Shown one piece after another: positions 11,718 through 28,890 of a stretch of 34,444 nucleotides of DNA (the first letter of the stretch is position 1; the number at the start of each line of letters is the position of its first letter). Below the pieces are notes generated by a model. That model was not told the DNA's origin. It did not search any database and was given only the letters and a program-made list of their open reading frames with translations. A program made the position numbers and the translations under genes. This DNA comes from a virus: positions 1 to 34,444 of the IMG/VR virus record IMGVR_UViG_3300027759_000246, one strand, 5' to 3'.

Positions 11718-11718
11718 T

Positions 11719-13797
11719 ATGACTACAGCAAACACAGCACTCAGAGTCACAGAACTGGACTTTGATTCAATCAAGAACAACCTCAAGACCTATCTAAGAA
11801 GCCAGACAGAGTTTCAGGACTTTGACTTTGAAGGTTCTGGTATGGGCGTATTGCTGGATATCCTAGCCTATAATACACATTATATGGGCTACTATCTCAA
11901 TATGACAGCCAATGAAATGTTTCTTGATACCGCACAGCTTCGTGGTTCGGTTCTCTCTCATGCTAAGATGATCAATTATATTCCTACAAGTCGCCGTGGT
12001 GCGAAGGCTGTGGTCAATATTCAGGTCACACCTTCAATCACAGAAGATAGATTAACCAATACAATTACCATACCAAAATATAAGAAGTTTATCGGCAGTG
12101 ATATCGACGGTCAGAACTATGGTTTCGTTACACTATCAGCAAACGTTGCATCAAAAAGTTCAAACACATTCATCTTCAGCAATGTAGCCATCTATCAGGG
12201 TGATGTTGTTACACGACAGTTCATCATGGATCCAGGCAATACAAAAAGATCATTCCCCTTACCATCTGCTAACATTGATACTAGCACACTTACTGTAACA
12301 GTTCAAGAGTCAACATCAAATACATTCACATCAGAGTATTTCATTGTAAATGATATCACTAGCATCACATCAAATGCTGAAGTATACTTCATCGAAGAAA
12401 ATCAAGATTTAAACTATACCATATATTTTGGTGATGACGTTATCGGTAAGAAACCTAAGAATGGTAGCGTCATCACCGCTACATATCTAGATACAATCGG
12501 CGAGAGAAGCAATAACATCTCTAAGTTTGTGGCCAGCGGCGGTATTGCACAATATACTGATAATGTTTCTATCACCTCTATTCAGTCATCATTTGGTGGT
12601 AGAGAGAAAGAGACAATCGAGCAGGTTAAATTCCGCGCACCATATTACTTTGCAACACAGAATCGTGCGGTTACCGCTGATGACTATGCGGCTATTCTCA
12701 CCAAAGACTATCAGAATATTGATTCGGTATCTGTATGGGGCGGTGAGCAGAATGATCCACCTGTATATGGTAAGGTCTATATCTCACTCAAGATGAAGAA
12801 TAACTTCTATCTAACTAATATCGAAAAAGAAACCATCAAGCAAGAGTTGATCAATACCAGAAACGTCTTGACAGTTACACCCGAGATTGTCGATCCAGAT
12901 TATACATTCATTCTTGTCAATGGTAATGTTTATTATAATCCAGCACTGACAACGGCCAGTGTCGATACTATCCGCCAGTTTGTTGTTGCATCGGTTGTCG
13001 ATTATGAAGCGGCTGAATTGAACCGTTTTAACTCTACATTTAGAAAGTCGAAACTACAGAACTATGTGGAGGCGGCTGAGAAATCTATTACAGGTTCAGA
13101 AATCAGAGTGTATCTACAAAAGAGAATAGTTATTGATCCTACCATTACAACAAACTATTATATCCAGACAAAGGTACCTATTAAGAGGGGTGATCTTGTC
13201 ATATCTCGTATCTCGTCATTCCCACAGGTTAATGTGTATGATGCCAGTAGTGTTCTTCGCCCAGTATTCTTCGAAGAAGTTCCGGAAGTTCTAACAGGTT
13301 TAGATTCGATTACTGTTAAAACAACTGGTCAAAGTTATAGATCAGTACCAACTGTTACCATTATTGGTGATGGGTCAGATGCTACGGCAGTGGCTAAGGT
13401 GGTTGGTGGTCGTGTTACAGGTATTGTTATCACAAACCCTGGAACAAACTATACCAGAGCCGCCATAAGTATTACTGGTGGTAATGGTTCTGGTGCATCA
13501 GCCACATCTATTCTACAATCAAAAACAGGTAGACTTAGAACATATTATAATAAGAATACTGGTGAAAAGATCATTGTAAATGGAAATGCTGGTTTGATCA
13601 ACTATGACACAGGTCTTATTCAGCTTACTGCACTAAACACAACTGGTACAGTCACTAACGATCTATATGATACTAATGTATTAACATTCAATATTCCTAT
13701 TGATAGAGAAGTTATTTCACCGTTGAGAAATCGTATTCTGTCAATCGACCAGAATAATCCATTCAGCGTTCAATTACAAGTCGTACCTGAAGCATAA
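11719..13797 (+). CDS. gp6: gp6 baseplate wedge protein
   Basis: A 692-residue homologue of T4 gp6 (660 residues), the wedge subunit that forms the continuous ring around the hub (baseplate J family). The N-terminus is typical: NLKTYLRSQTEFQDFDFEG, then LLDILAYNTHYMGYYLNM and NEMFLDTAQLRGSV. The central part carries the AEIYFGD-like YTIYFGDDVIGKKP and the RAPYYFATQNRAVTADDYAAIL signature. At residues about 528-600 there is a Gly-rich module (GQSYRSVPTVTIIGDG and ITNPGTNYT) that also occurs in gp7 and gp8 and looks inserted compared with T4. It overlaps no neighbour; three A residues separate its stop from the gp7 ATG. Confidence 0.92.
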   Translation: MTTANTALRVTELDFDSIKNNLKTYLRSQTEFQDFDFEGSGMGVLLDILAYNTHYMGYYLNMTANEMFLDTAQLRGSVLSHAKMINYIPTSRRGAKAVVNIQVTPSITEDRLTNTITIPKYKKFIGSDIDGQNYGFVTLSANVASKSSNTFIFSNVAIYQGDVVTRQFIMDPGNTKRSFPLPSANIDTSTLTVTVQESTSNTFTSEYFIVNDITSITSNAEVYFIEENQDLNYTIYFGDDVIGKKPKNGSVITATYLDTIGERSNNISKFVASGGIAQYTDNVSITSIQSSFGGREKETIEQVKFRAPYYFATQNRAVTADDYAAILTKDYQNIDSVSVWGGEQNDPPVYGKVYISLKMKNNFYLTNIEKETIKQELINTRNVLTVTPEIVDPDYTFILVNGNVYYNPALTTASVDTIRQFVVASVVDYEAAELNRFNSTFRKSKLQNYVEAAEKSITGSEIRVYLQKRIVIDPTITTNYYIQTKVPIKRGDLVISRISSFPQVNVYDASSVLRPVFFEEVPEVLTGLDSITVKTTGQSYRSVPTVTIIGDGSDATAVAKVVGGRVTGIVITNPGTNYTRAAISITGGNGSGASATSILQSKTGRLRTYYNKNTGEKIIVNGNAGLINYDTGLIQLTALNTTGTVTNDLYDTNVLTFNIPIDREVISPLRNRILSIDQNNPFSVQLQVVPEA

Positions 13798-13800
13798 AAA

Positions 13801-16404
13801 ATGACAGCAGCCAATACACGCATATCAAATCTCATTAGTAGTCAGGTACCGTTTTATGTTAGAAACGATCACCCGAACTTTATCCGTTTCTTAGAGTCAT
13901 ACTATGAATATCTAGAACAAGAGAACAAAGACCTTGATACACTCAAGAGTATGCGTGAATACTCGGATATTGATACAACACGAGATGATTTTCTAAACAA
14001 ATTCTATAATAACTTTATGAAATTGTTTCCTGATGGTACAGTTGTCGATAAGACTCTTGTCCTGAAACATATCAAAGAGTTCTATCAGTCTAGAGGTTCA
14101 GCTAAGTCCGTTAAGTTCTTACTTCGTATTCTCTATAACCAAGAGATTGAAGATATCTATCTACCAAAGCAAGATATTCTTAGAGCCTCTGATGGTAAAT
14201 GGCATATCGAGAAAGTATTGCTGTTAGGTGATGTTCAGGTCAATAACATATCTAATTCGATGGCCTCAACGATTAATTACTTCGTGGCCAACCGAGTTGT
14301 AGGTCAAACATCAAACGCATTTGCTATTGTTGAAAAAGCATCATCATACTATAACCGTGACTTTCTAATCAATGAACTTTCTATCTCAAACAAATATAGA
14401 AACTTCGATGGCGGTGAGAAAATCTATTGCTTCTTTGAAGAGAATGGCCAACAGAAATTTCTCTCAGCTAACCTATTCTCTGGATTTATCGACACTGTTA
14501 GTGTAATCTATGGTGGCACCGGCTATTCGGTTGGTGATAATGTTGTCATCGAAAGCAATACAGGCTCAGGTGGTCTTATCGTTGTCGATACAGTAATGAC
14601 AGGTAACGTTAAGACGATATATCCTGATGTTAATCCTGAATTGCGTGGTGCAGGCTTTCAAGTCAATCAACAGATATTGTTTACTGGCGGTAGCGGTGGC
14701 TTCGGTGCTAATGCTCGTATCTCAGCCGTATTAGCGGATTCATCTGTTCATCCTAATTCATATGTTATGATCGCATCTGTTATCTCAGATGAGGTCAATA
14801 CACGCATCGGAAATACTATTATCTCATATGAAACTTTTGCATATCAAAACCTAGCTACTCAATATATTCGATCATCAAATCTAACGATTGGCACAGGCAC
14901 AGGCAATTCTGTTAACGTAATCAATCTCAGCGCACAGAAAGCTAACTCAAATACATTCTTTGAAACATATGATAGTTTGAATGTCAATGGTGTTATTGTG
15001 TTGGTTACATCATCCAATACAATCGCCAATACGATTACAGTAAGACCTGGTCTCACCGGTAATTTAATAGCCAATTCTTTCATTGTTATTAAGAAAGCTA
15101 ATGATTACACCACTATCGCTAATGCGGTTGTGAGTTATGTCTATGCTAATACTGGCCCTATGGATCAATTACAGCTAGTAGCACATGGCGATTATTATCT
15201 GACCACTCCAGTAACTTCAGTTGTAGCCAATACACGAATTAGATCACTTGGTGTATTAGGTAGAATGAAGATTCATAATGGTGGTACCGGATATGCGGTT
15301 GGTGATACGATTACCTTCACTAATGTTCCATTTGGTTATGGAACTGGGGCGGCCGCCAATGTTACGAGTGTGGCTGCAAACGGTATGATTCGACAGGTTA
15401 GATTTAAACCTGTCACAGGTCAGATCACCGGTGGTTCTGGTTATGAGATGAACTTCTTACCTCTGGCTAGTGTAACATCCGCTAATGGTAATGGCGCCAA
15501 CATTATGGTGACAACACTACTAGGTCAAGGTGAATCTATATCAACCATCATGAATAAAGCTGGCACATTGATGACACTAGCTGTTGTGGCATCCGGATCT
15601 GGATATGATACAATACCGACTTTGAATCTATCTAATAGCGGTGACGGTACCGCTCAGGCGGCCGCCACAATAATCAAGGGTGAATATAATTACCCCGGTC
15701 GTTACCTCAATGATGATGGCCATATATCTGGTTATAACTTCATTGAGGATAGAGATTATTATCAGTCCTTCTCATATGTTGTTAAGTCTCGCCAGTCCGT
15801 AGATTCATATCGTCAAGCACTTAATCAGCTTGTTCATCCATCAGGTATGAAGCTATTTGCCGAATATCTATATGATAATACTGGAGACAATAATAACGTC
15901 TCTATCCAGTCGTCCAATGGTATATACAACCAGTCAACACGCAGTGGTAAATATGTGGCGACAAGTAATGCCAATGGTATCACAATCGTGGTTAATGCCG
16001 ACTCTAATACAATCAATTTGACCTCATTATCGAACGTATATATCGAGTTTGTTACAGGTGATATGGTTAACTTGAGCAATGCAATCTATAGAGCGAATGT
16101 CATTAATACCACCTCATTCAGCGTCTATAGGGCGAATGTTCGAACAGGTACCGTAAGAGCTAACTCAGGTAATGGTAACACATTCTCACTAATGGGTACC
16201 GGAACAAACTTCAAGTCTGATCTAGCTGTTGGTGATGTGATCAAGATTGGTGGTTGGTCTAATACATTCTATGTTGGTGTTTTATCGAACGCCAGCAATC
16301 TGTATGTTACAGATACATTACCTCCATACATCACAGGTAATACATATGGTAGAGTTTACACTCCTTCGAACAGTAGCGGTACAATCTACTTTACCAGCAT
16401 ATAA
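13801..16404 (+). CDS. gp7: gp7-like baseplate wedge initiator
   Basis: An 867-residue wedge protein in the gp7 position between gp6 and gp8. T4 gp7 is 1032 residues and starts wedge assembly. The N-terminal 130 residues are the most recognisable: NFIRFLESYYEYLEQ, a conserved helical segment, then FYQSRGSAKSVKFLLRILYNQEIE. The middle carries several Gly-Thr-Gly-Tyr modules, at about residues 232-270, 486-530 and 597-627. The last 80 residues (about 787-857) match a segment of the downstream 2211-residue protein. Only a poor ribosome site precedes the ATG. The stop codon is embedded in a late-promoter box at 16400-16407. Confidence 0.8.
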   Translation: MTAANTRISNLISSQVPFYVRNDHPNFIRFLESYYEYLEQENKDLDTLKSMREYSDIDTTRDDFLNKFYNNFMKLFPDGTVVDKTLVLKHIKEFYQSRGSAKSVKFLLRILYNQEIEDIYLPKQDILRASDGKWHIEKVLLLGDVQVNNISNSMASTINYFVANRVVGQTSNAFAIVEKASSYYNRDFLINELSISNKYRNFDGGEKIYCFFEENGQQKFLSANLFSGFIDTVSVIYGGTGYSVGDNVVIESNTGSGGLIVVDTVMTGNVKTIYPDVNPELRGAGFQVNQQILFTGGSGGFGANARISAVLADSSVHPNSYVMIASVISDEVNTRIGNTIISYETFAYQNLATQYIRSSNLTIGTGTGNSVNVINLSAQKANSNTFFETYDSLNVNGVIVLVTSSNTIANTITVRPGLTGNLIANSFIVIKKANDYTTIANAVVSYVYANTGPMDQLQLVAHGDYYLTTPVTSVVANTRIRSLGVLGRMKIHNGGTGYAVGDTITFTNVPFGYGTGAAANVTSVAANGMIRQVRFKPVTGQITGGSGYEMNFLPLASVTSANGNGANIMVTTLLGQGESISTIMNKAGTLMTLAVVASGSGYDTIPTLNLSNSGDGTAQAAATIIKGEYNYPGRYLNDDGHISGYNFIEDRDYYQSFSYVVKSRQSVDSYRQALNQLVHPSGMKLFAEYLYDNTGDNNNVSIQSSNGIYNQSTRSGKYVATSNANGITIVVNADSNTINLTSLSNVYIEFVTGDMVNLSNAIYRANVINTTSFSVYRANVRTGTVRANSGNGNTFSLMGTGTNFKSDLAVGDVIKIGGWSNTFYVGVLSNASNLYVTDTLPPYITGNTYGRVYTPSNSSGTIYFTSI

Positions 16405-16407
16405 ATA
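16400..16407 (+). promoter_or_regulatory. T4-type late promoter TATAAATA before gp8
   Basis: A perfect late-promoter box overlaps the gp7 stop codon (the TAA is inside the box) and ends 23 bases before the gp8 ATG. The expected start site leaves space for the AGGAT ribosome site before gp8. It would give extra transcription of gp8 and the tail protein downstream. Confidence 0.65.
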
Positions 16408-16430
16408 TAATGGAATAATAGGATATAAAA

Positions 16431-17762
16431 ATGCCGTCCATCTTTACTGAAAATCTTCGTGTCTATAATGCTGAACAGTTCAAACAGTCAATCTCTGATG
16501 TGGGACCGACTAATATCTATTTGACATTTGGTAGAACTAGACCTTGGGATAATGAGAGTGTTCCACCTCAGGCCAACTCATCTGTTGAAGGGTTCAATGA
16601 TGTATGGAGAAACATGATCGGTGCAAAACTGGTCACAGGTAATGATGTTCGCCATGCTATTCCTAGACGCGATTGGACCTCAGGTACAACTTATGCTATG
16701 TATGATAACGAAGAACAGGTTGGATATCTATTTTCTGATAATGTATCTTTTTTCGTTGTCACATCGGATTGGAATGTATACAAGTGTCTGATGAATAACT
16801 ATGGTAAACCATCGACGGTCATGCCAACTCAGACCATTCTGAACTCACCTGTTAAAGAATCTGATGGTTATATTTGGAAGTATATGTATACTGTTGCGGC
16901 TGAAGAAAGACTTAGATTTACAACCAGTGCATATATTCCTGTTAGAACACTGGTCAATAATAACAACTCGATGCAGTGGAGAGTCCAACAAGCCGCAAGA
17001 GAAGGCACTATTGATGTTGTAGAGGTGATCAGCGGTGGTTCTGGTTACATGAATGCTAATACGATCATTGTCACTATTACTGGTGATGGTCTCGGCGCTC
17101 AAGCATTTGCTAGTATCAATACTATATCAAATACAGTTAATACTGTTACAATCACAAATCCAGGTACCAATTATACATATGGTTTCGTTGATATTGTTGA
17201 TTCAGGAACAGGAGCTAATGCTATTGCTAAACCTCGCATTCCTCCTCCAGGTGGTCATGGTAGTGACCCTATGAGAGAATTAGGTGGTTCATATATCATT
17301 ATCAATCCGAGAATCATTAGAACTGAAGATGGTCAGTTACCTGTCACGAACGAGTTCAGACAGATTTCTATCTTGCAAGACCCTCATGAAAGAGTTGCAG
17401 ATAACGTAGCTAATTCTCTAGTCTATACACAGACAACTAGAATGATCCTAAGTACCGGTTCAGTGGACTATTACCATGATGAAACGGTCTATCAAGGTTC
17501 ATCTCTAGCTGAAGCATTATTTACAGGTATCGTATGTGCATGGGATGCTCCAAATAATTTCATTCAATTAACAAATACAACAGGAACTCCGGCAGCGGAC
17601 GTTCTTGTTGGTGCTAATAGTGCGGCAGCCCGATTCGTCGAATCTATTACAGATAAAGAACTAAAAGACTACTCAGGTCATCTACTATATACCGATAATA
17701 TCAGTCCTATCACTCGTGCAAACGATCAGACCGAGGACTTTAAGATCGTATTGAAATTCTAA
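16431..17762 (+). CDS. gp8: gp8-like baseplate wedge protein
   Basis: A 443-residue protein in the gp8 position (T4 gp8 is 334 residues and dimeric). The N-terminal half is diagnostic: IYLTFGRTRPWDNE, WRNMIGAKLV, HAIPRRDWTSGTTYAMYD, VYKCLMNNYGKPS and SDGYIWKYMYTVAAEERLRF. The extra length is mainly a Gly-rich module at residues about 194-273 (VISGGSGYMNA and ITNPGTNYTYGF), also found in gp6 and gp7. An AGGAT site lies just ahead of the ATG and a late promoter just before that. Confidence 0.88.
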   Translation: MPSIFTENLRVYNAEQFKQSISDVGPTNIYLTFGRTRPWDNESVPPQANSSVEGFNDVWRNMIGAKLVTGNDVRHAIPRRDWTSGTTYAMYDNEEQVGYLFSDNVSFFVVTSDWNVYKCLMNNYGKPSTVMPTQTILNSPVKESDGYIWKYMYTVAAEERLRFTTSAYIPVRTLVNNNNSMQWRVQQAAREGTIDVVEVISGGSGYMNANTIIVTITGDGLGAQAFASINTISNTVNTVTITNPGTNYTYGFVDIVDSGTGANAIAKPRIPPPGGHGSDPMRELGGSYIIINPRIIRTEDGQLPVTNEFRQISILQDPHERVADNVANSLVYTQTTRMILSTGSVDYYHDETVYQGSSLAEALFTGIVCAWDAPNNFIQLTNTTGTPAADVLVGANSAAARFVESITDKELKDYSGHLLYTDNISPITRANDQTEDFKIVLKF

Positions 17763-17779
17763 AAAGGAACGATAAGAAA

Positions 17780-20700
17780 ATGGTTGATCCAGTATTAACA
17801 GCCGCACAGAACGCCTCTGGGAACACTACGAATCTAGGAAACACGGGGTTAACGACTAACTTTAACGTCACACCCTATTATGATGATTATGATCCCAATG
17901 ATCAGTATTATAGAATCTTGTATAAACCAGGATTTGCAGTGCAGGCTCGTGAACTCACTCAGATGCAATCAATGTTGCAGAGCCAAATCTATAGAATGGG
18001 TCGGCATGTATTCAAAGATGGTACTATTGTTCTTCCAGGTGGTTTTCGCGTTCGCACCAATGCTGGTGAGAAAAAAGGTGAACCCATCGACTATGTTAAG
18101 ATTAAGACAACGAATGCTTCAAACGTTTCTGTGAATGTTAATGATCTTGTTGGTTCAACGCTTACTGGTGCAACCAGCAATATTAAAGCCTATGTTATTG
18201 ATGTGGCCGATAGCGATGGTACAACACAAAATACAAAGACAGTCTACGTCAGCTATATGAGTGCGTCATCCGTTGATTCAAATGTTCGCACATTTCTTGC
18301 TGGAGAAACTCTAACAAGTGCAAATAATGGTGGTGCTATTGTTCTCGATAGTGATCCTGTAGCCAACACAGGATATGCTGGTTGGTTCCAGATTCAAGAA
18401 GGTGTTTACTTTGCTAAAGAACATTTCATCTATTTCCCAACTCAGTCGGTGGTTCTTGACCGCTACAATCCTAATCCAACCTGTAAGGTTGGCTTCATTG
18501 TATCAGAAGAAATTGTCAACTATAACCAAGATTCAAATCTTCTTGACCCCGCTCTTGAAGCATCTAACTATTCTGCCCCAGGTGCTGACCGATTTAAACT
18601 TGCATCAACACTTAGCGTTCTAAGTATTGATGATGCAGCCGGTCTACCAGATTTCGTGACATTGTTTACCATTAAAGATGGTATTATGCAAATATCTCGT
18701 GAAAAGACTGATTATAACATACTTGGTGATGCTATTGCTGAAAGAACCTATAATGAGTCAGGCGATTATGTTGTTCGCGGACTTAACGTTCAGGTTCAAG
18801 AGCATGATCGTGTAGAATCTCCTGTCAATAACCAAGGGAGATATGCTAACGGTAACAATCAACTTCTTATTGTTAACGTAGATCCGGGTATTGGCTATGT
18901 TAAAGGTTATCAGATCAGCAACCAAGACATTGTTTCTATCGAAGTTGAAAAACCTACAGAATATAACAATGTCGCATCTCAGATCACATCAACTTCGATG
19001 GGTCAATATCTAAGAGTTAATGAAGCTGTCGGTTCATGGCAACTCGATCAAGGTGCTAGAGTTAACTTTTATGATGTGGTTCAGAAAAGAATCACTAATA
19101 ATGATGTGACAACAGGTCAAAAATGGTCAGTTGGTGCCCAGACTGGTAACCTTATCGGTTCCGCTGTCGTTAACTCTGTCCAGTATACGGGTTCAGGCAC
19201 CCTTGGCTATGACGCTCAATATGATATCTTCTTATCAGATATCAAGATGATCGGCGCTAATAGCACAGCAAACATTCGAAGCCTGTATTATGATAACACT
19301 CCACACTCAGATGTTGGTGCTGACGTTGTTGGTGCAAGTAATTCAACATCAAATACTACGCTCAGAGGTCTTGATCAAGCAGCATTACTTTATTATGTAG
19401 GATCAAACTCTGTAAAAACTGCTAGAGATATTAATGGTAATCCTACTACAATCTATAACTTCAATAGAACTGACGGTATTGCGGCGGCTCTGACATTCAG
19501 CACAAGCGGTACAACAACTATCACTCTTTCGGGCAACACAACTTCCCAGATTCCATATGGAACTGTAGCGTCATTGTCACAGGCCGATAAGACACAAGAT
19601 TTCTTAGTGACACTGAATCAGACCTTTAATATTGGACCTCTCTGGTCAGCAACTATAACATCAAACGGTACAAGATATCTAACTAGTGCTAATGCTAACT
19701 TCACTAGAATGAATGTCGGTGATAAGATCGAACTTGCAGGAAACCCAAATACATGGTATATCTCAGCTATCTCTGATGATAATCATATCATGGTATCAAA
19801 CACAGTTCCTTCATATGCTTCAGGCAATCTTGCTTTCAAAGCCTACAAGACCGGCGACATTATCAATATGTCAGGTAAAGGTGTGCTTGTTGGTACTGAA
19901 AGAAATATTGCCGCAACACCGACTAGCCTCGCATTTGATCTGAAAGAAACTTTCCCATCAACTGTAGCGGCCACAATCACATATCAGATTGCATCAAAAC
20001 AGTCTACAGAAGTTGCTAAAATCTTGAAACCAAACCGCTTCGTCAAGATTAACTGCTCAACGGCAGGTACATCTGGACCATTCTCTCTTGGTTTTGCTGA
20101 TGTGTATCGGATTCGTAATGTTATTAAGAAAACTGGTTCAGCACCGAGTTCACTATCTGATGGTACAAACGTAACTAGATACTTCACTCTCGACAATGGT
20201 CAGAAAGATACTTTCTATGATATTGCCAAGCTGAAGAAATTTAATGGCTACACTCTCGGCGCCACAGACTTCTTGCTAATCGAACTCGATTACTTCGAAC
20301 CAAGTTTCTCAGGTCGTGCAGGTTTCTTCACTGTAGATTCATATCCAATTCAGGATAATGATGCTAATAGTTCAAATTCAACTATCAGAACCGAAAATAT
20401 TCCACTATACATCTCACCAACTACTGGTCAGAAGTATGACTTGCGTAATAACATCGACTTCAGACCTATTAAGGCTGCAACTGCTACCGATACAACTGTT
20501 GTCGCTTCTGCTACAATCAATCCATCATCTAACTCATCTACATATAGCTTCGGCGCAAGTGGTCTAAAATTCCCTGTGCCTTCAACCGAAGTTATCTATG
20601 ATTACTCATACTATCTCGGTAGAAAAGATGTTGTTATAGGCACAAAAAATAATAGATTTGCTGTTGTTAAAGGTGCATCATCAGCGACTCCATTGATTCC

Positions 20701-23700
20701 AGAAACATCCGATAACAATATGATTCTTGCGGTTATCAATGTTCCTCCATATCCAACTGTATCACCAACATATGGTAATAATCTTGGTAGAAGAGACCTT
20801 GCCTGTTCTGTTCAGAAGGCCTCAAATCGTAGATATACCATGCGTGATATTGGTGTTCTAGAAAATAGAATCAAAAACCTTGAGTATTATACAGGGTTAA
20901 CGATGCTTGAAAAAGATGCATTGAATCTGAAGATCACTGACGATGCGGGTAATGATCGTTTCAAAAACGGTATCTTCTTAGACACATTTAAGGACACCTC
21001 GCTCTCTGCTAAAGGTGCGAATCCAGATTTTAGAATTGTTGTTGATCCTAATGAATTGAGCCTTGTGCCTCTATATGTTCAAGAATCATGGAAGCACGAA
21101 TATCTTTCAGGCTCTACAACTGGTACGGCTGTTGCTGTTAATAATAATATCATAACCTTTGCATATACAGAAACTTCACAGTTCGTGCAACCAAAAGTTA
21201 CTGATCATAGATTGCTTGAAAGAGGTACGTTCCTTTATAGAGGAGCATTAAATATTCTTCCAAATCAAGATATGTGGATTGATACGACTTATGCTCCTGA
21301 TGAAATAGTTAAAATTGAAGCAAATAACTCCGGACTAAGTATCAGTGTAGGCAATTCAGCAAACGGCTGGACTGATGATAAAGACGCACAGGTCACTAAG
21401 AGTCTTCTGAATACCGACTGGGAATCTTGGAAACAACACATTACTGGTTATAAGCTCTATAAAGGTGAAGGCGCTTCTAAGGTTCTTTATGGAACGTATG
21501 CAAATGAAGAAGAGGCTAGGGACGCTGCCGCTACTTGGACAACAAAACAAAATCAAGGTTCGGCCACACTCGAAACACTTTATTATAATGATAGAATTGG
21601 CACAAGCTACTACGCCAACTATAGCACAGATGATGCCGCCGGCTCATATAAGATGATCTCAAGCACGAAGATTCCATATATTAGACCTCAGACACTCTAT
21701 GTTATAGGTGTAGGTCTGAAACCTTATAGTAAAGTCAAAGTATTCTTTGATGGCGTTAGCGTATCTGCTTATTGCAGGCCTTTGACCTACAAACAATTCG
21801 CGGTGCTTGCGGCCGGTTATTCGCCTATTGTAGGTGAATATTATGGAAGTCTTGGTGATCCGCTAATTGTTGATGATATTGGAAGAACTTTCTTTGAGTT
21901 CCATCTCACACAGGATGGTCCTCGTTTTAGAACTGGCGAAAGACGACTGTATGTTCTCGATGGTGATCAGATTGATCCTCAGCAAATCTCAGCCGAACTC
22001 GATGCATCTACAACCGCATCCGGTATCTTCGTTGCTGATGGTACTGCTCAGACATTACAGAGAACAGTCTATTCAACGTCAGGTTATGAAAGAACATATG
22101 GACCTGCATATGACAGGGCAAAAGAAGAATCTTCATATGCGGTTATGCCTAATACATGGACACCACCACCCAAGCATGGTCACTGTTGCTTCAATCCAGA
22201 AGCTAAGGTTCTCATGGCTGACAAGACATGGAAAGCTATCCAAGATATTGTAGAAGGTGAAAAAGTTCTTGGTGATAATGGTCAGGTCAATACTGTTCAG
22301 AAGGTTAATGCACCTCGTATCGAAGATAGAAAACTGATCAAATTTGAAGGTATTGATGGTACCACATTCTTCTCAACCGATGATCACTTGTTTATGACCG
22401 ACAAAGGTTGGAAAACATGGGATATTGAGGCTGTTAAGAAGTCTTATGATGATGGATTCAAGATCGATTATGTGTTCTTGGAAAATGACAACAAGACATG
22501 CAGCATCGACCATAATGACAAACTGAAAGTTATTAAACCTGAAACTCTATCTTATGACTTCGTTCCTTATGAAGGTGAGATAGGTATGCATGGTTATACC
22601 TCAGAAGATTTGGTCTATGACTTGACTCTTGACGGTAATATGACCTATATCGTTGAAGGTTATGTCGTTCATAACTGTTGCGTAGCATATGTTGTGTTCA
22701 TCAAAGCACCTGATGAAGAAGAAGGTATATTCGTAACAAGTATGGATGTATTCATACATTCCAAATCTACAACAAGAGGCCTATGGTTTGAAATCAGGGA
22801 AGTTGATAAGGGTGGAGGTATTACACCTACAACAATTCCAGGAAGTTCGGTACACTATGAGAATGCAGATATCGTCGTTTCACCAAACGGTAAAGATAGC
22901 CCAATGCATGTTGTGTTCCCAAGACCAGTATTCTTGTTCAAGGACACCAACTATGCATTTATCGTCCATTCCGATAGCCCAAGCCCGCTTGACGTTGATC
23001 CTGACACTTCAATCTGGATCTCTAGACTTGGTGAGACTGATATTAACACTGGTCAGAAGGTATCTGATAGGCAAGCTACAGGTACATTCTATCAGACACT
23101 CAATAACCGCTCATGGGATCTAATTGATGGTCTAGACTTGACCTGCAACATCTATAGAGCCGTGTTCCCGAAAGATACTACAGCCAACTTCATCATTGGT
23201 AATGAACCAGTCGAAAAGTTCTTCATGGCCAATGCTTCTACTTCACTGAGTGGTAAAGTTGGTAGCTGGTTTACAACAGGTGATACTCTGACTGTAACTG
23301 GTGCTAACGGAACTATCGCTCTAACAGATAGAGTTCAAGGCAATACCTCAGTAGCTAATGCTAACGGTAATGTCGTAAATGTTATTAGTGCGACACAGTT
23401 TGCTGTATCTAAAACAAGATATCAGATTGGTGAGAAAGTAAACATCTACTATTCATCAAATAGCACATACAAGTGTTCTGCTACTGTTACAGCCATCTCA
23501 AACAGTTCAGCTAAGTTGTCTTACTATAATGAATCGGCCTCTAGTATCTACGGTGAGTTTAAAAATTCTACTGGCGGATTCAAAGTAGGTTCTGTGATTA
23601 GTGATATGATAGAAGGTACTACATATAGTGCCCAAGTAACTACTATTGATGATTATGCATATGGCGCCTTCAGTTATGAGCCAACTGTTCTCGACTTTGT

Positions 23701-24415
23701 TAAGACAAATATAAAATATGAAATGAGAACATATGCTAACGGTTCAACCTCAGTAGGCAGCTATAATTATATCAGCCCTTCTGATACAACATATCTCTCT
23801 GATGAAAGGTCACTCTATAGCAGAACAAATGAATTGATCAATATTGGTGGTAACAAGTCAAACCAAATCAGAGTGACTCTTATCACAAACTCTGAATATG
23901 TTTCACCCGTATATGACCTAGATACTTCACATACAATTTTCTTAGATAGTCAGATTAACTCAGACTACTCAGGTGAAGATGGAAAATCTGGTGGTAATGC
24001 CATCAATAAATACATCTCACAGATTGTAACTCTTGCTGATGGTCAAGATGCGGAAGACCTGAAGGTCTATCTGACAGCATATAGACCACCAAATACAGAT
24101 GTTAAGGTCTATGTCAAGTTGCTTCATGCAAGTGATACCGATCCTTTCGACCAGAAATACTGGATTGAAATGACCAAAAATGGTACTGGCGAGTCATTAT
24201 ATTCATCTATCTCCGATAGAAATAACTTCAGAGAGTTTGTATATAACTTACCAACCTCAGTAATGGTCGGACCTGATGGGCAATCTCAATATACTAGCAA
24301 TGGTATAGCGTTTAACGGCTACAAACAGTTCGCTGTTAAAGTTGTATTGCTTGGCGACAACTCAGCCGTCTATCCAAGAGTTGCTGATTTGAGATGTATC
24401 GCGGTACAGATGTAA
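17780..24415 (+). CDS. Giant tail structural protein (DUF4815-type N-terminus) containing an in-frame intein
   Basis: A 2211-codon open frame, the largest gene here and probably a peripheral baseplate or fibre-attachment protein. Residues 25-95 (FNVTPYYDDYDPNDQYYRILYKPG-type region, then QARELTQMQSMLQSQIYRMG) match the DUF4815 family of T4-like aquatic phages. Residues about 627-694 resemble the C-terminus of gp7. Residues 1470-1632 form an intein-like domain listed separately. After it comes GIFVTSMDVFIHSK, a region I recognise from tail proteins of related phages where it follows a VAQ-type motif. The C-terminus (SPVYDLDTSH, ISQIVTLADG, FAVKVVLL and VADLRCIAVQM) also fits that family. If the intein splices, the mature product is 2048 residues. 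AAAGGA lies 11 bases before the ATG. Confidence 0.82.
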   Translation: MVDPVLTAAQNASGNTTNLGNTGLTTNFNVTPYYDDYDPNDQYYRILYKPGFAVQARELTQMQSMLQSQIYRMGRHVFKDGTIVLPGGFRVRTNAGEKKGEPIDYVKIKTTNASNVSVNVNDLVGSTLTGATSNIKAYVIDVADSDGTTQNTKTVYVSYMSASSVDSNVRTFLAGETLTSANNGGAIVLDSDPVANTGYAGWFQIQEGVYFAKEHFIYFPTQSVVLDRYNPNPTCKVGFIVSEEIVNYNQDSNLLDPALEASNYSAPGADRFKLASTLSVLSIDDAAGLPDFVTLFTIKDGIMQISREKTDYNILGDAIAERTYNESGDYVVRGLNVQVQEHDRVESPVNNQGRYANGNNQLLIVNVDPGIGYVKGYQISNQDIVSIEVEKPTEYNNVASQITSTSMGQYLRVNEAVGSWQLDQGARVNFYDVVQKRITNNDVTTGQKWSVGAQTGNLIGSAVVNSVQYTGSGTLGYDAQYDIFLSDIKMIGANSTANIRSLYYDNTPHSDVGADVVGASNSTSNTTLRGLDQAALLYYVGSNSVKTARDINGNPTTIYNFNRTDGIAAALTFSTSGTTTITLSGNTTSQIPYGTVASLSQADKTQDFLVTLNQTFNIGPLWSATITSNGTRYLTSANANFTRMNVGDKIELAGNPNTWYISAISDDNHIMVSNTVPSYASGNLAFKAYKTGDIINMSGKGVLVGTERNIAATPTSLAFDLKETFPSTVAATITYQIASKQSTEVAKILKPNRFVKINCSTAGTSGPFSLGFADVYRIRNVIKKTGSAPSSLSDGTNVTRYFTLDNGQKDTFYDIAKLKKFNGYTLGATDFLLIELDYFEPSFSGRAGFFTVDSYPIQDNDANSSNSTIRTENIPLYISPTTGQKYDLRNNIDFRPIKAATATDTTVVASATINPSSNSSTYSFGASGLKFPVPSTEVIYDYSYYLGRKDVVIGTKNNRFAVVKGASSATPLIPETSDNNMILAVINVPPYPTVSPTYGNNLGRRDLACSVQKASNRRYTMRDIGVLENRIKNLEYYTGLTMLEKDALNLKITDDAGNDRFKNGIFLDTFKDTSLSAKGANPDFRIVVDPNELSLVPLYVQESWKHEYLSGSTTGTAVAVNNNIITFAYTETSQFVQPKVTDHRLLERGTFLYRGALNILPNQDMWIDTTYAPDEIVKIEANNSGLSISVGNSANGWTDDKDAQVTKSLLNTDWESWKQHITGYKLYKGEGASKVLYGTYANEEEARDAAATWTTKQNQGSATLETLYYNDRIGTSYYANYSTDDAAGSYKMISSTKIPYIRPQTLYVIGVGLKPYSKVKVFFDGVSVSAYCRPLTYKQFAVLAAGYSPIVGEYYGSLGDPLIVDDIGRTFFEFHLTQDGPRFRTGERRLYVLDGDQIDPQQISAELDASTTASGIFVADGTAQTLQRTVYSTSGYERTYGPAYDRAKEESSYAVMPNTWTPPPKHGHCCFNPEAKVLMADKTWKAIQDIVEGEKVLGDNGQVNTVQKVNAPRIEDRKLIKFEGIDGTTFFSTDDHLFMTDKGWKTWDIEAVKKSYDDGFKIDYVFLENDNKTCSIDHNDKLKVIKPETLSYDFVPYEGEIGMHGYTSEDLVYDLTLDGNMTYIVEGYVVHNCCVAYVVFIKAPDEEEGIFVTSMDVFIHSKSTTRGLWFEIREVDKGGGITPTTIPGSSVHYENADIVVSPNGKDSPMHVVFPRPVFLFKDTNYAFIVHSDSPSPLDVDPDTSIWISRLGETDINTGQKVSDRQATGTFYQTLNNRSWDLIDGLDLTCNIYRAVFPKDTTANFIIGNEPVEKFFMANASTSLSGKVGSWFTTGDTLTVTGANGTIALTDRVQGNTSVANANGNVVNVISATQFAVSKTRYQIGEKVNIYYSSNSTYKCSATVTAISNSSAKLSYYNESASSIYGEFKNSTGGFKVGSVISDMIEGTTYSAQVTTIDDYAYGAFSYEPTVLDFVKTNIKYEMRTYANGSTSVGSYNYISPSDTTYLSDERSLYSRTNELINIGGNKSNQIRVTLITNSEYVSPVYDLDTSHTIFLDSQINSDYSGEDGKSGGNAINKYISQIVTLADGQDAEDLKVYLTAYRPPNTDVKVYVKLLHASDTDPFDQKYWIEMTKNGTGESLYSSISDRNNFREFVYNLPTSVMVGPDGQSQYTSNGIAFNGYKQFAVKVVLLGDNSAVYPRVADLRCIAVQM
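22187..22675 (+). other. Mini-intein (Hint domain, 163 residues, no homing endonuclease)
   Basis: Protein-splicing domain inside the tail protein, residues 1470-1632. All expected splicing positions are visible. Intein residue Cys1 starts block A (CFNPEAKVLMAD). Block B has T64-D65-D66-H67 (the TxxH motif) in FFSTDDHLF. Block F reads VYDLTLDGNMTYIVEG, and block G ends VVHN with penultimate His162, terminal Asn163 and a Cys at +1. The space between blocks B and F is about 75 residues, with no LAGLIDADG or HNH motif, so it is a minimal intein. The flanks are HGHC before Cys1 and CCVAYVVF after Asn163. Because Cys1 is preceded by another Cys, the boundary could be one residue earlier. A cleaving rather than splicing Hint domain is the main alternative. 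Confidence 0.87.
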
Positions 24416-24424
24416 GGTGTGATT

Positions 24425-24622
24425 ATGAGTATTAAGACTGATGTTCCTGGTGTCTATAAAGATGGTGAGGGAGTTCTTATAAATAAAGATAACGAAGCCC
24501 TTCGCGCTTATAGACACCAGAAAATGCAACGAAATAAGTATGTTGAGATTGAAGAAGAGGTGAAGGTCATCAAAAGTGACCTTCACGAGATAAAAGAACT
24601 TCTAAAAGGATTGATAAAGTAA
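24425..24622 (+). CDS. Small coiled-coil protein between tail and adhesin genes
   Basis: A 65-residue protein of unknown function. The N-terminal half (MSIKTDVPGVYKDGEGVLINKDNEAL) is a short polar arm. Residues about 40-65 (VEIEEEVKVIKSDLHEIKELLKGLIK region) have a regular heptad pattern that predicts a coiled coil. An in-frame GTG at 24419 could add two residues, but AAGGTG at 24414-24419 is well spaced for the ATG at 24425. The gene carries a perfect late-promoter box (24478) and a 10-bp hairpin (24560-24586) within its coding sequence. Its stop touches the next start. A small trimerising or adaptor protein is a guess only. Confidence 0.75.
   Translation: MSIKTDVPGVYKDGEGVLINKDNEALRAYRHQKMQRNKYVEIEEEVKVIKSDLHEIKELLKGLIK
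24478..24485 (+). promoter_or_regulatory. Possible intragenic late promoter TATAAATA
   Basis: A perfect box inside the 65-residue gene, 138 bases before the fibre gene at 24623. It could start a separate transcript for the adhesin array. Being in coding sequence of an AT-rich genome, it may also be chance. Confidence 0.35.
24560..24586 (+). repeat. Perfect 10-bp inverted repeat (hairpin) within the 65-residue gene
   Basis: GTGAAGGTCA at 24560-24569 is exactly complementary to TGACCTTCAC at 24577-24586, with a seven-base loop that can close by one further wobble pair. No T run follows, so it is not an ordinary terminator. It could be a processing site or leader structure for the adhesin transcript, lying 36 bases before the next gene. 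Confidence 0.6.
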
Positions 24623-25267
24623 ATGGCAATCGCAAATGTAACGCTTAATGATACGTTCGATGAGTGGAGAACGAAAACTAACCAGCTTATCAATATCTAT
24701 GATGAGACAAATCTTCTTGCGAGATCGTCATACAATGCTACCAATCTGTCTGTTGCAACAGCGGCTAATATTGCGGCTAACATTCTCGTAACAAACACTA
24801 TCTATACAAATATTATCTATACTGCTACGAATACAGCACTACCAATCGTTCTAACATCTAATACACTACTGATTGCTACGATTGGTTCTTATGTCAATAC
24901 AGCGGCTAACAACTTCCTATCTAACTCGAACCTAGGGCTTGCATGGCGTGGTGCCAATACCGCTCAGACAGTTGCTAATCTAGCATTTGATAAGGCCAAC
25001 ACCGCAGGTCTCATCGCTAACCTAGCCTATGACAAAGCTAACACAGGCGGAGGTGGTGGAGGTGGTGTTGGTGGTTACTTCGTAGGTAATGATGGTCGTG
25101 TTGGTGCGGCTAATACGGTCAATAACATCTTCACTATTACAACACCATATCTAAACACTAATGTATACTTCTCAACTGCTGAAAACTCATTCGCTGTTGG
25201 TCCTATCTATTTGAATGCGAATGCTTCAATCACAATCAATACTGGCGCCAGAGTCGTTATTATCTAA
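24623..25267 (+). CDS. Short tail fibre or adhesin protein with ANxA/DKAN repeats
   Basis: A 214-residue probable virion protein. The N-terminus VTLNDTFDEWRTKTNQLI is a pattern I recognise at the start of structural proteins in aquatic T4-like phages, probably an attachment segment. It is followed by Ala/Asn/Thr-rich helix (TAANIAANI). Near residues 112-142 come repeats of the type NLAFDKANTAGLIANLAYDKANT, which look like a trimeric coiled-coil stalk, and then a run of seven Gly residues. The last 60 residues form a beta-rich head ending in SFAVGPIYLNANASITI, shared with the next gene. It starts immediately after the previous stop, with AAAGGA about 12 bases upstream. Confidence 0.7.
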   Translation: MAIANVTLNDTFDEWRTKTNQLINIYDETNLLARSSYNATNLSVATAANIAANILVTNTIYTNIIYTATNTALPIVLTSNTLLIATIGSYVNTAANNFLSNSNLGLAWRGANTAQTVANLAFDKANTAGLIANLAYDKANTGGGGGGGVGGYFVGNDGRVGAANTVNNIFTITTPYLNTNVYFSTAENSFAVGPIYLNANASITINTGARVVII

Positions 25268-25284
25268 AGAGGTTATAGAAACAA

Positions 25285-26064
25285 ATGTCAATTTTAAGAG
25301 TAGATAGTTTACAACTCAATGCCGCAGGCAATGCTGGTGTTTCTATATCAAATACTTGGAATGTATCGATTAGTGCAGGCGGTCTAGAAGGTCTAGTTGT
25401 TCAGACAACTGGTGATGTTGTTGTTAATAACCGACTGATCATCAAAGCATCAGGTCTTAACTATGCTGTCAACACAGCTATCGAAAGCGCATTCAGCACA
25501 GCAAACACAGCACTATCTGTAGCCAGCAACTCTGGTGCAACTATTGCTATTGCGGCTTTTAACCAAGCAAACGTAGCATCTGCATCAAACCCTGTGGCGA
25601 ATGCTGCATATACTCAAGCCAATGCGGCTTATGCTCAGGCTAACCTTGGCGGTAACAAACTCGGTGTTTCAGGTTTCTTCAACTTCAATGATGTTGAGCT
25701 TGGTGAAAACGTAAACATTTGGTCTAAGAACTTCACAGTAAGCATTGTATCAGCCAACAATGGTTCAGGTAACATCACAGCAAACGCTCATACATTTGTT
25801 GTCAATGATGTGGTTCAGTTCACCTCAACAGGCGGTACACCAGCTAACGTTAATACGAATGCTAACTACTACATCGTAACATCTACCTCCAATGTCATTC
25901 AAGTGTCATCGACAAGAGCAGGTTCAACACTAAATCTACAGAACATTGGTTCAGGAACAATCGTAATCTACAAACCAGTCAATGCTTCTGCTGTAGGTCC
26001 AGTTTCACTCGCTAACGGATTTACTATCAATGTGGCCACTGGCTCCACACTAGCTGTATTGTAA
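25285..26064 (+). CDS. Tail fibre/adhesin protein with MSILRVD adaptor and VGP C-terminal strand
   Basis: A 259-residue probable adhesin. The start MSILRVDSLQLNAAG resembles the MST(F/L)KVD adaptor of the following genes. Residues 60-125 are Ala/Asn-rich with the periodic NAAYTQANAAYAQAN motif of phage fibre stalks. Residues about 130-235 are beta-rich with no assignment. The end ASAVGPVSLANGFTINV parallels the end of the preceding gene, so the two are probably modular relatives sharing stalk and tip closure. It lies in a same-strand array with gaps of 9-17 bases. Confidence 0.68.
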   Translation: MSILRVDSLQLNAAGNAGVSISNTWNVSISAGGLEGLVVQTTGDVVVNNRLIIKASGLNYAVNTAIESAFSTANTALSVASNSGATIAIAAFNQANVASASNPVANAAYTQANAAYAQANLGGNKLGVSGFFNFNDVELGENVNIWSKNFTVSIVSANNGSGNITANAHTFVVNDVVQFTSTGGTPANVNTNANYYIVTSTSNVIQVSSTRAGSTLNLQNIGSGTIVIYKPVNASAVGPVSLANGFTINVATGSTLAVL

Positions 26065-26073
26065 GAGGATTAA

Positions 26074-26466
26074 ATGAGTACCTTTAAAGTAGACGTATTA
26101 CAAAGCAGAAGTGGTGGAGCTACCACATTTACTGGTCAATATACAGCAAAAGCATGGGTAAACCTTAATGCTTCATCAGGAACACCTACCGCTCGTTCTA
26201 GTGGAAATGTTACCAGTTTAACCGATAATGGTGTTGGAGATTTTACTACAAATTTCACAAACGCACTTTCAAGCGCAAATTATTCTGTGTCAGGATCTGC
26301 TAGTGTTTTTTCCGTTGGGGCTGGCGGGGCTACTGTTGTGGAAATATATGATGCGGCAGGAGGAGGGACTAACCCTACTACGACTACCCTTCGGATTTAT
26401 GTTCATCGTAGCGGTGTAAGTGCTGTAGACCAAACATATGTTTGTGTTAACATTATAGAAAATTAA
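26074..26466 (+). CDS. Small adhesin: adaptor plus AKAWVN knob domain
   Basis: A 130-residue protein made of a short adaptor (MSTFKVDVLQSRSGG) followed directly by a beta-sandwich-like domain starting AKAWVNLN. Other landmarks are SLTDNGVGDFTTNFTNALSSANYSVSGSA and a closing strand VCVNIIEN. I know this knob as the tip of tail fibres in many environmental phages, where it may bind host surface or stabilise the trimer. Here it is almost the whole protein. The next gene and the end of the 564-residue fibre carry the same domain. AGAGGA precedes the ATG. Confidence 0.7.
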   Translation: MSTFKVDVLQSRSGGATTFTGQYTAKAWVNLNASSGTPTARSSGNVTSLTDNGVGDFTTNFTNALSSANYSVSGSASVFSVGAGGATVVEIYDAAGGGTNPTTTTLRIYVHRSGVSAVDQTYVCVNIIEN

Positions 26467-26475
26467 GGAACCGTT

Positions 26476-26865
26476 ATGTCTACATTCAAAGCAGATTACA
26501 TCATCGCAAGACAGGAAGAAATAGCTGGTAACACCAGCTCTATTCCAGTGAAAACCGTTGTCAATGGTACAGCAAAAGCATGGGTAAACTTTAACGGAAC
26601 TGGTACGATTGCGATTAGATCGAGTTTCAATACTTCAAGTATTACAGATGGTGGTGTTGGTATATACACATCAAACTTCACAAACGCATTGAGTGATGCT
26701 AACTTTTGCCCAAGTGGTTCTGCCGGAGTGCCAGCAGGGTCAATAGGACAATTTCAGACTTACTGGGTAGCACCCACCGCATCGACTTGTAGTGCTTCTA
26801 GTCGCAACAATGCCGGTTCGTTTGCGGATTTTGATTATGTTGCCTTGTTGATTATGTATCGCTAA
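26476..26865 (+). CDS. Small adhesin paralogue with AKAWVN knob domain
   Basis: A 129-residue paralogue of the protein just upstream. It has the adaptor MSTFKADYIIARQEE, a 15-residue spacer with KTVVNGT, and the same knob (AKAWVNFNGTGTIAIRSSFN, SITDGGVGIYTSNFTNALSDANF). The DNA encoding the first knob strand is also nearly the same in both genes, so the pair probably arose by tandem duplication and divergence. The C-terminal halves differ, as expected if the tip contacts variable receptors. The knob tip here has cysteines (FCPSGS and TCSASS) missing from its twin. AAGGA lies seven bases before the ATG. Confidence 0.7.
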   Translation: MSTFKADYIIARQEEIAGNTSSIPVKTVVNGTAKAWVNFNGTGTIAIRSSFNTSSITDGGVGIYTSNFTNALSDANFCPSGSAGVPAGSIGQFQTYWVAPTASTCSASSRNNAGSFADFDYVALLIMYR

Positions 26866-26895
26866 TAAATATAAGAAAGATTCAGGAGTAAGTTA

Positions 26896-28533
26896 ATGTC
26901 AATTACAATTAGTGGTTCATCAGGTATCGTAGGTGCAAACGGAAGTGCAATCGCACCAGCCTTAACTGGTGGTGATTTTGATAGTGGCATTTTCTTTCCA
27001 AATCCAAATACAGTGGCCTTTTCAGCAGGTGGTACTGAAGTGTTTCGGGCGAATACTGGCGGGCTTTTTTCATCAACGACTGGTCTAATAGTTGGTGCCT
27101 CAACCAGTGTTATAGCCGATTATTTTAACGGTACAGGCTCTCAGACAGCATTCACACTTTCTGGAAATCCAGCAACTAAAAACAACACAAGCGTGTATAT
27201 TAGTGGCGTGTATCAGGCTAAGTCAACATACAGCCTAAGCACAACAACATTGACCTTCTCGACAGCACCTCCTTCTGGCACATCTAACATTGAGGTTGTG
27301 TGGAATCTACCGCTTTCTATTGGCACACCTAGCGATGGCACAATAACAGACGCAAAGATCAATTCTTCTAGTAAACTTTACAATCGAGTTAATGATATTA
27401 TTAGCGTTAAAGATTACGGTGCTACGGGTGATGGAAGCACAGATGATTCTGTTGCTATTCAAAACGCTATTAACGCAGCCGCAAATAAATGCTTGCACTT
27501 TCCTGCTGGAATTTATTTTTGTGGAACAGCATCGTTTTCAATTACATCGCCAATTGAAATTAAAGGTGTTGGCGGTCCAGCTTCATGTAAATTAGTCAGA
27601 AGTTCAAATTCTTTTGGCAATTCATTATTTTATGCAACTAATGTTACTGGCGTTAACATCCGTGATATATGGTGTCATTATTCAAATGCTGCAACTGTTG
27701 TAAGCGCAGATCATGCAGCCATTCAAACATACACTTGTAACAATGTTCTTATTGAAAACGTATGGGTTACTGGCCTTTGGTATGTTGGCATTGAAATAAG
27801 CAATTGCACAAAATCTGTAGTCAATAAATGCTCAGTTCGCGGTGTCCATAATCGCGCAATATATTGCTACCAAGCCTGTAAAGACACTATTTTTTCCAAT
27901 AACCATATAGATGGCGCAATTTATGGTGGTTCAACAAAGACAACAAGTTACGGAATAAATGTCAATCCAGCTTTAATAGGTACTATAAATAACATAGTAA
28001 TATCAGATAATACAATTCGTAATACAGTTTCTCAAGGAATTTCTACTGCTGAACAAACTTATGGAATAACTATTGTTGGCAATTCAATATCTGATGTTGG
28101 CACTTCTCATGGTATTCTTGTGCAAAAAGCTAATGGTTTTTCTACTACTCAAGTAATAGTGGTTGGTAACAACGTAAGTGGATGTGGGCAATATGGAATT
28201 TATTTGACCGAAAGTTATTACGTTACTTGCACTGGAAACGTATCACAAGGAAACACATTAGCAGGAATAGCTGGTAATTTTATTCAAAATTCTGTAATAA
28301 GCGGGAATATATTAGATGGTAATGGTGGAGATGGAATTTATTTAGGTAATAATTCTAATCGCAACATAGTTACTAGCAATATGTGTGTTGTGAATGTAGG
28401 TTATGGGTTAAAAATAGATGGAGCTACTAGTTTTTACACTAGATATAATGATAACTATTTTTACACAAACACTGCTGGATCAGTTTCCGATACAGGAACA
28501 GGTTCTAGTGCCGGAACAAATCTAACAGTTTAA
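26896..28533 (+). CDS. Tailspike with pectate-lyase-type right-handed beta-helix
   Basis: A 545-residue tailspike, possibly a polysaccharide-binding or degrading enzyme. Residues 1-70 hold a fibre-type adaptor (TGGDFDSGIFFP and GGTEVFRANTGG). Residues about 75-155 are a beta domain (YFNGTGSQTAFTL to SIGTPSDGTITD) common in phage spikes. From residue about 168, IISVKDYGATGDGSTDD marks the start of the Pectate_lyase_3 fold, with many short N-I-V/I repeats typical of parallel beta-helix coils (VVVGNNVSGCGQYGIYL, NSVISGNILDGNGGDGIYLG). I cannot identify catalytic residues. The beta-helix part is richer in A+T than the baseplate genes, which suggests recent acquisition. AGGAG precedes the ATG. Confidence 0.8.
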   Translation: MSITISGSSGIVGANGSAIAPALTGGDFDSGIFFPNPNTVAFSAGGTEVFRANTGGLFSSTTGLIVGASTSVIADYFNGTGSQTAFTLSGNPATKNNTSVYISGVYQAKSTYSLSTTTLTFSTAPPSGTSNIEVVWNLPLSIGTPSDGTITDAKINSSSKLYNRVNDIISVKDYGATGDGSTDDSVAIQNAINAAANKCLHFPAGIYFCGTASFSITSPIEIKGVGGPASCKLVRSSNSFGNSLFYATNVTGVNIRDIWCHYSNAATVVSADHAAIQTYTCNNVLIENVWVTGLWYVGIEISNCTKSVVNKCSVRGVHNRAIYCYQACKDTIFSNNHIDGAIYGGSTKTTSYGINVNPALIGTINNIVISDNTIRNTVSQGISTAEQTYGITIVGNSISDVGTSHGILVQKANGFSTTQVIVVGNNVSGCGQYGIYLTESYYVTCTGNVSQGNTLAGIAGNFIQNSVISGNILDGNGGDGIYLGNNSNRNIVTSNMCVVNVGYGLKIDGATSFYTRYNDNYFYTNTAGSVSDTGTGSSAGTNLTV

Positions 28534-28545
28534 AAGGAATATGCT

Positions 28546-28890
28546 ATGTTCGCTCTTGTAAAAGATCAAAAGATATTAGCGGTTGAGCATAGTGAACTTG
28601 CTCTTGCCCCTGAGATAGAACTTCATGGCGGAAAAATACTTCCTGTAATTCAATTTGTTCCACCGACTGATCATATTGCAGATGGTTCTGCTTGGTACGA
28701 ATTATCAGGTGATACAGTCTATCAAAAAGCAAACTCAGTTTTTGCATTTTCCAATTATGCAGAAGCAAGAAAATTAGCATATCCCCCAATCACTGATTAT
28801 ATAGACGGCATTGTGAAAAATGATACGGCGCAAATAGCTGCGTATATATCTGCATGTTTAGAAGTGAAAGTTAAATATCCTAAATCTTAA
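28546..28890 (+). CDS. Small tail-associated protein with YPPITDYIDG C-terminus (XkdW-like)
   Basis: A 114-residue protein downstream of the tailspike. The C-terminal 40 residues (YPPITDYIDGIVKND, then a helix ending VKVKYPK) match a motif I know from small genes beside phage tail fibres, sometimes called XkdW-like or assembly-helper proteins. The N-terminal part (FALVKDQKILAVEHSE) is beta-rich and not assigned. A role in folding or attachment of the neighbouring spike is inferred from position only. AAAAGGA precedes the ATG. Confidence 0.62.
   Translation: MFALVKDQKILAVEHSELALAPEIELHGGKILPVIQFVPPTDHIADGSAWYELSGDTVYQKANSVFAFSNYAEARKLAYPPITDYIDGIVKNDTAQIAAYISACLEVKVKYPKS

Follow-up and report, generated by a model that had tools for sequence, protein, structure and literature searches.

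The question raised by this locus is whether, in a T4-like phage, a domain within a tail protein removes itself from the chain by splicing. The window, by which we mean the whole 34,444-nucleotide stretch analysed (IMG/VR record IMGVR_UViG_3300027759_000246), contains on its plus strand a gene of 2211 codons (17780–24415; ATG start, no internal stop) with an intein-like insert of 163 residues. Inteins are mostly viewed as parasites that occupy conserved sites of nucleic-acid enzymes and are maintained by homing. The insert described here has a virion-type host, lies behind a hypervariable linker, has no endonuclease of its own and belongs to a family in which one subclade appears to record a recent transfer. 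In our view, the sequence comparisons and the predicted fold are most consistent with a class 1 cis-splicing mini-intein without an endonuclease, a reading to which we give a probability of about 0.84.

The annotation of some homologues and the solved structures of one point to a host that is a tail protein of virion type. It belongs to the DUF4815/phrog_358 (VrlC-like) group, with PF16075 matching at 159.6 bits (cut-off 30) and phrog_358 at an E value of 0. Homologues in other T4-like phages are labelled VrlC, structural or hypothetical protein, and structures have been solved for one DUF4815 homologue (9euf and others; the best match covers residues 237–400), in keeping with the tail structural role proposed in the first-pass annotation. 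The gene follows a baseplate block of T4-like type, consisting of a gp53-like gene, gp25-like and gp6-like genes with a further wedge gene in the gp7 position (11319–16404, plus strand) and a gp8-like wedge gene immediately upstream of the host gene (16431–17762, plus strand), the last two intervals being assigned by profile matches. Positions 16187–28675 recur without any difference over 12,489 bases of IMG/VR contig 3300009183_000050 (140,865 bases), and a blastn search with the DNA of positions 21500–23800 (2301 bases) gave no match in the phage collection. Elsewhere in the window, the minus strand encodes a 715-residue protein (829–2976) with a Phage tail lysozyme match over the cut-off and a GDSL-lipase match under its own, and a 148-residue protein with a TnsA-like endonuclease domain (5099–5545) adjoining T4-like tail genes, which may be a head-completion nuclease like T4 gp4.

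The insert occupies residues 1470–1632 (22187–22675), precisely where the first-pass annotation placed it. It is preceded by an N-extein of residues 1–1469 (17780–22186), which ends in a variable linker (TPPPKHGHC), and is followed by a C-extein of 579 residues (22676–24412) that is a gene of its own in some relatives. The motifs reported in the first-pass annotation are all present in frame: Cys1, the N-terminal nucleophile (22187–22189); the block B sequence T64-D-D-H67 (22376–22387); the block F aspartate D145 at position F:4 (22619–22621), the role of which is taken from the available part of PMC4031507; the penultimate H162 and terminal N163 of block G (22670–22675); and Cys+1, the C-extein nucleophile C1633 (22676–22678). 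In an alignment of the window with ten relatives that are 41–53% identical to its insert, three of which are almost the same as one another in this region, C1, T64, H67, D145, H162 and N163 are invariant (11/11 rows).

The profile search of residues 1470–1632 that had been suggested as a check gave a divided result. NCBIfam intein_Cterm reached 19.2 bits on the whole protein, above its cut-off of 15.6, whereas intein_Nterm, at 23.9 bits on the domain alone and 18.9 on the whole protein, stayed under its cut-off of 24.5. The Pfam families Hom_end_hint, Hint, Vint and Intein_splicing, with PF14890, PF01079 and PF05203 among their accessions, match the insert only below their gathering scores, and rSAM_Rv_intein matches with an E value of 1e-9 but far below the cut-off for the whole family. 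None of the homing-endonuclease profiles matched the 163 residues, in agreement with the absence of an endonuclease noted earlier. An AlphaFold2 model built with the 11-sequence alignment has a pLDDT of 91.0 and a pTM of 0.86 (a run with three sequences gave a pLDDT of 48.9 and was set aside), and this high-confidence model is a Hint fold. It superposes on BIL2 (6y75; Z 16.8), the Mtu RecA intein (2in0; Z 15.7), Npu DnaB (Z 15.3) and gp41-1 (Z 15.2), in all four cases over 124–136 residues.

As a protein query the insert matched 103 phage records at E values up to 10; among the 40 matches listed the best E value is 2e-3, many are called 'hypothetical protein' and none is annotated as DUF4815 or baseplate, and two matches of 60–80% identity fall among the other 63. 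A search of genome_contigs (one genome per species, 84,980 species) with the intein alignment yielded just two weak matches, to the N-terminal part (L154 and L155; related loci carry L numbers).

The features of a class 1 intein are thus found together in the window: Cys1, TxxH, Asp F:4, His-Asn, Cys+1, the predicted Hint fold and exteins that are contiguous in homologues. The first five of these are the same in the class 1 mini-inteins Mtu RecA (splicing domain), Npu and Ssp DnaB and gp41-1, with which the model shares its fold (Z about 15) and the absence of an endonuclease that is usual for natural mini-inteins; a homing intein, in contrast, has an endonuclease domain within it. The differences are that the hosts of these mini-inteins are nucleic-acid enzymes, whereas the host here is a tail protein with a hypervariable N-side flank, and that the insert is just distantly related to them in sequence (best phmmer match E 0.07). 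BIL domains (Clostridium thermocellum 2lwy, Tetrahymena BIL2 6y75) are among the best structural matches to the model, and the resemblance extends to a variable host region and to sister domains of the family without Cys, Ser or Thr at +1. According to the available part of PMC4031507, however, BIL domains are defined by having no nucleophile at +1, and the copy in the window has Cys+1. A parallel as to host is the portal intein of mycobacteriophages (PORT, for example in phage Pier), likewise an intein in a phage virion protein, although a different one; its N-terminal part is 37.8% identical to residues 1–70 of the insert (E 8e-3).

Comparison with relatives indicates that the protein family does not carry the insert as a constant feature. 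Relatives were retrieved with an extein query made exclusively from sequences that carry the insert, and the best 80 of at least 539 (at least 600 stretches) were retained, near-copies included; 74 are readable at the site and six end before it. The insert is present in 11 of these 74 loci and missing from 63, which is not to be read as a frequency because the query came from carriers, only the best rows were kept and near-copies are counted. Within the same 80, the ten closest matches carry the insert and L077 carries a variant. The first-pass annotation had held that a domain fixed in all homologues would not be a splicing intein, and had proposed aligning the flanks to intein-free homologues. 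All 13 rows of the window's own clade carry the domain, yet the exteins meet directly in the 63 loci without it, as in L060 (...PPPRGKHC-SAYSFL), and in seven of the eight named phages that were fetched, the eighth, Stenotrophomonas phage DLP6, having a gene break at the site. In those seven, which include Ochrobactrum phage vB_OspM_OC and Pelagibacter phage HTVC008M, the junction reads DP-x-[AS]Q, and in most nearer intein-free relatives it reads C-x-[AG]Y. The corresponding motif of the window, C-V-A-Y (22679–22690, plus strand; DP-x-AQ here in other lineages), opens the conserved C-terminal domain, and its cysteine is kept in 39/39 intein-free relatives of the conservation profile.

An extein tree (FastTree, 65 rows) places the insert in all 13 rows of the window's clade (support 100) and in three distant rows, L130, L135 and L120, which suggests no fewer than three gains or losses at this one joint; a single gain with two losses may account for the three. 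L135 covers 21% of the columns, so that its placement is unsure. The tree takes in six of the eight named phages, those with split genes being left out, and lacks nine loci in which a motif filter found no ORF (L077, L092, L093, L095, L101, L103, L105, L108 and L109) and 18 rows dropped for an identical middle segment (or first 100 residues). By eye, the linker of L077 is like that of insert-free relatives such as L076.

The two sides of the site differ sharply in conservation. Measured over the 39 intein-free relatives, the 10 and 20 residues upstream of the insert both lie in the 2nd percentile of the protein, the final 20 residues of the hypervariable linker being encoded at 22127–22186 on the plus strand; the C-side flanks of 10 and 20 residues are in the 77th and 87th percentiles, and the centred flanks in the 30th and 17th. 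The accessible text of PMC2814812 places inteins in conserved sites and BIL domains in variable regions of the host protein. A conserved host site is a usual rather than a defining trait of inteins, and the N-side flank of the insert does not fit it, whereas the BIL trait fits on the N side only. We count the variable N-side flank against the splicing reading.

This flank is one of several observations that would suit an autocleaving, BIL-like domain, which would excise itself and leave the tail protein as two chains that stay together in the virion. Other such observations come from relatives in which the two halves are encoded separately and presumably stay together in the virion. In L120, L121 and L137 the DUF4815 N-half gene (L121:1807-7560, and the same in the other two) has at its end a tandem pair of Cys+1 inteins, with CGGGGCGC between the two, together with a third Hint domain that lacks His-Asn; the following gene encodes the C-half and starts with MTKPIAQTF at the same joint. 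In L135 the N part lies in two ORFs; its closing Hint domain is followed by Lys and a further 17 residues, and MSLSSINPIAQTF is the start of the following gene, at the joint. The DLP6 gene is split there without any Hint domain, and versions with Lys at +1 are also found at the joint. What speaks against cleavage is the +1 position itself. We collected 45 distinct Hint domains, of which 14 fall outside the end pattern and were left out of the +1 counts (in one of these, the first domain of L149, Cys follows by eye). The 31 with readable ends have Cys in 17 cases, Lys in 13 and Ser in one, and Asp is found at F:4 in 17/17 Cys+1 domains and 0/13 Lys+1 domains, counts that are not independent because the rows are related. 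A DNA pattern blind to the +1 residue gave 25 stretches, all from contigs already fetched, with Cys in 19, Lys in 6 and no other residue. Asp is the commonest residue at F:4 and is thought to activate the +1 nucleophile (PMC4031507, as far as its text was available), so the coupling supports splicing by the Cys+1 kind; cleavage alone would need neither residue, and the window has both. We therefore consider autocleavage of the window's copy quite improbable.

It could also be proposed that the insert is no longer reactive and is kept as a folded decoration. A linker position would tolerate such an insert, the window's copy has a long end branch, and every row of its immediate clade carries the insert, so that a fixed function without splicing is possible. 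However, the catalytic residues have stayed invariant across the 11 rows of the alignment at 41–53% identity to the window's copy, and dN/dS is 0.04–0.07 in three close pairs, none of which includes the window. An inert insert is, in our estimation, very improbable indeed.

The Lys+1 domains lead to a broader suggestion, which we regard as tentative and rather unlikely: that, within a group of T4-like phages, the joint preceding the C-terminal domain is a site dedicated to self-processing, at which one Hint family would act in several modes. These would be splicing (Cys+1 with Asp F:4), a Lys+1 mode without Asp F:4 in which the domain would cleave, or ligate through Lys without Cys, Ser or Thr, and Hint domains that close an N-half encoded separately. 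The 13 distinct Lys+1 domains are those of L186 (residues 1167–1314), L185, L190, L192, L164, L135, L134, L181, L136/L140, L138, L168, L176 and L184, and the +1 nucleophile is missing at this same joint in L077/L186, L185, L190, L192 and L164, which suggests that something other than ordinary splicing is tolerated there. After the invariant Lys the sequence varies (KKSC, KDNS, KSGS, KSNA, KGGG, KASD, KDDG, KKGI or a stop), and some of these domains end the protein as VHNK-stop (VVHNK-stop). Because the Lys is kept even where the protein stops right after it, it should take part in the chemistry. Work by Aranko from 2013 is said, by its title, to describe ligation by BIL domains without a nucleophilic side chain, and by analogy the Lys+1 domains may ligate, or they may cleave. 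If Lys did take part, this would be a new reaction class; if the joint were dedicated to self-processing, a tail of one chain or of two would be the outcome of the reaction there. Where the window has its insert, at a flexible joint, related phages have no insert, a variant that is not expected to splice in the usual way, or a gene break, which may point to a site in phage tails at which self-processing recurs.

For the window itself the cis-splicing reading is preferred, and we infer the following course. After translation, a thioester would link Cys1 to the N-terminal half of the protein; this half would then pass to Cys+1; the terminal Asn would cyclise and free the intein from its place between the variable linker and the conserved C-terminal domain of about 580 residues; and an S-to-N shift would leave a continuous protein with the junction HGHC-CCVAY. 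Its predicted length of 2048 residues, as given in the first-pass annotation, agrees with the arithmetic (2211 − 163). Splicing may be a late step in the maturation of the tail.

In the window's clade the insert appears to have been inherited with the gene. Between the window and L002 the insert is 52% identical and the exteins 55 and 54%; the corresponding values are 46% against 58 and 53% for L124, and 51% against 61 and 55% for L116, so that insert and exteins have diverged to much the same extent with L002, and the insert further than the exteins with the other two; this fits such a descent. In the intein tree no other insert of the clade is as diverged as that of the window (end branch 0.84). 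This divergence and the lower conservation in some pairs count against the splicing reading, as do the profile scores under their cut-offs and the relatives that lack a +1 nucleophile at the joint. The intein tree has six of its 21 inner branches starred and is too weakly supported to order transfers; it places L116 with the L114 group (87/89), in conflict with the extein tree, where L116 groups with the window (99).

In the wider family a purely vertical history was rejected, since the inteins of L114, L115 and L129 are far closer to each other than their exteins are. The three pairs have intein nucleotide identities of 97.3, 93.1 and 93.3%, while the maxima over 1742 overlapping extein windows of equal length per pair are 91.0, 86.0 and 82.6%, all below the intein. 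Intein dS is 0.12–0.35 against 0.65–1.25 in the exteins, and the tract of high identity stops near the intein borders. Intein dN/dS in these pairs, 0.04–0.07, points to purifying selection there. Similarly, the L130 intein is 40–53% identical to those of the window's clade and its N-extein 29–33%. An intein so much less diverged than its host gene suggests a recent move in L114, L115 and L129 without an endonuclease of its own, and the element seems to move between genomes, rarely, in this way. Recombination could have carried it between genomes at the joint, as could homing assisted by a factor in trans. A Pfam scan of the 27 window ORFs showed no homing endonuclease. In eight records, all genome fragments, a search for free-standing endonucleases gave no HNH_3 match (0/8), one weak GIY-YIG match (1/8, none over the cut-off) and one HNH match over the cut-off, in the record of L121; none of the three families was found in the fragmentary records of L114, L115 and L129. 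A helper acting in trans is possible, since the records searched are fragments.

The low divergence in L114, L115 and L129 might instead reflect constraint on the intein DNA of an element that is not mobile. The pattern is confined to one subclade of three genomes, and the missing endonuclease matches in their records would suit such an explanation. But third positions between the window and L002 are 43% identical in the intein and 40 and 39% in the exteins, and between L130 and L131 dS is 1.02 in the intein and 0.99 and 1.07 in the exteins. Because third positions elsewhere diverge about as they do in the exteins, there appears to be no general constraint on the intein DNA, and we consider this explanation improbable.

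The view in the first-pass annotation that phage inteins usually lie outside structural tail proteins accords with the available text of PMC5050341, in which all intein hosts of mycobacteriophages, the portal included, are said to bind nucleic acid and the portal is the one virion component noted among them. A search by title and start of abstract, mostly within literature open without subscription, brought up no account of an intein hosted by a DUF4815 or baseplate protein. Within the literature searched, three things seem to be new: the kind of host protein, a variable joint that has several end states, and the sister class with Lys+1. The system makes it testable whether inteins can serve a host function, here tail maturation, and how inteins without endonucleases move, and the presence at one site of versions with Cys+1 and with Lys+1 could reveal how a domain passes from splicing to cleavage or to another form of ligation.

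Hint domains of this family also occur in other proteins. A profile scan of seven ORFs carrying them identified one DUF4815 protein (L121), a collagen-like tail fibre protein (L126), a Gly-rich protein with matches of tail-fibre type (L134), a match to Phage-tail_3 (L140), a match to a DNA-ejection family (L132) and a PA14 match with a weak head-protein match (L133); L138 gave no match in the same scan. At least some of the weaker relatives (L005, L032/L141, L154 and L155) look like enzymes by eye, so the wider family extends beyond virion proteins. Of the five matches on contig 3300025598_000027, three lie in the DUF4815 gene, one in the fibre gene and one in the gene adjoining the fibre gene. 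The fibre protein of L126 (L126:5458-6543) carries a Cys+1 intein before a Gly-rich tail, and the ORF after its gene, at 6531, opens with a Hint-like domain that lacks Cys1. In Achromobacter phages 2-1 and JWF (L156:2583-4025 and L158:2577-4028) a Hint domain lies near the end of a protein encoded next to tail genes and is preceded by a Cys-rich stretch of the NCNCDCNC type; both phages are cultivated and might provide a bench system.
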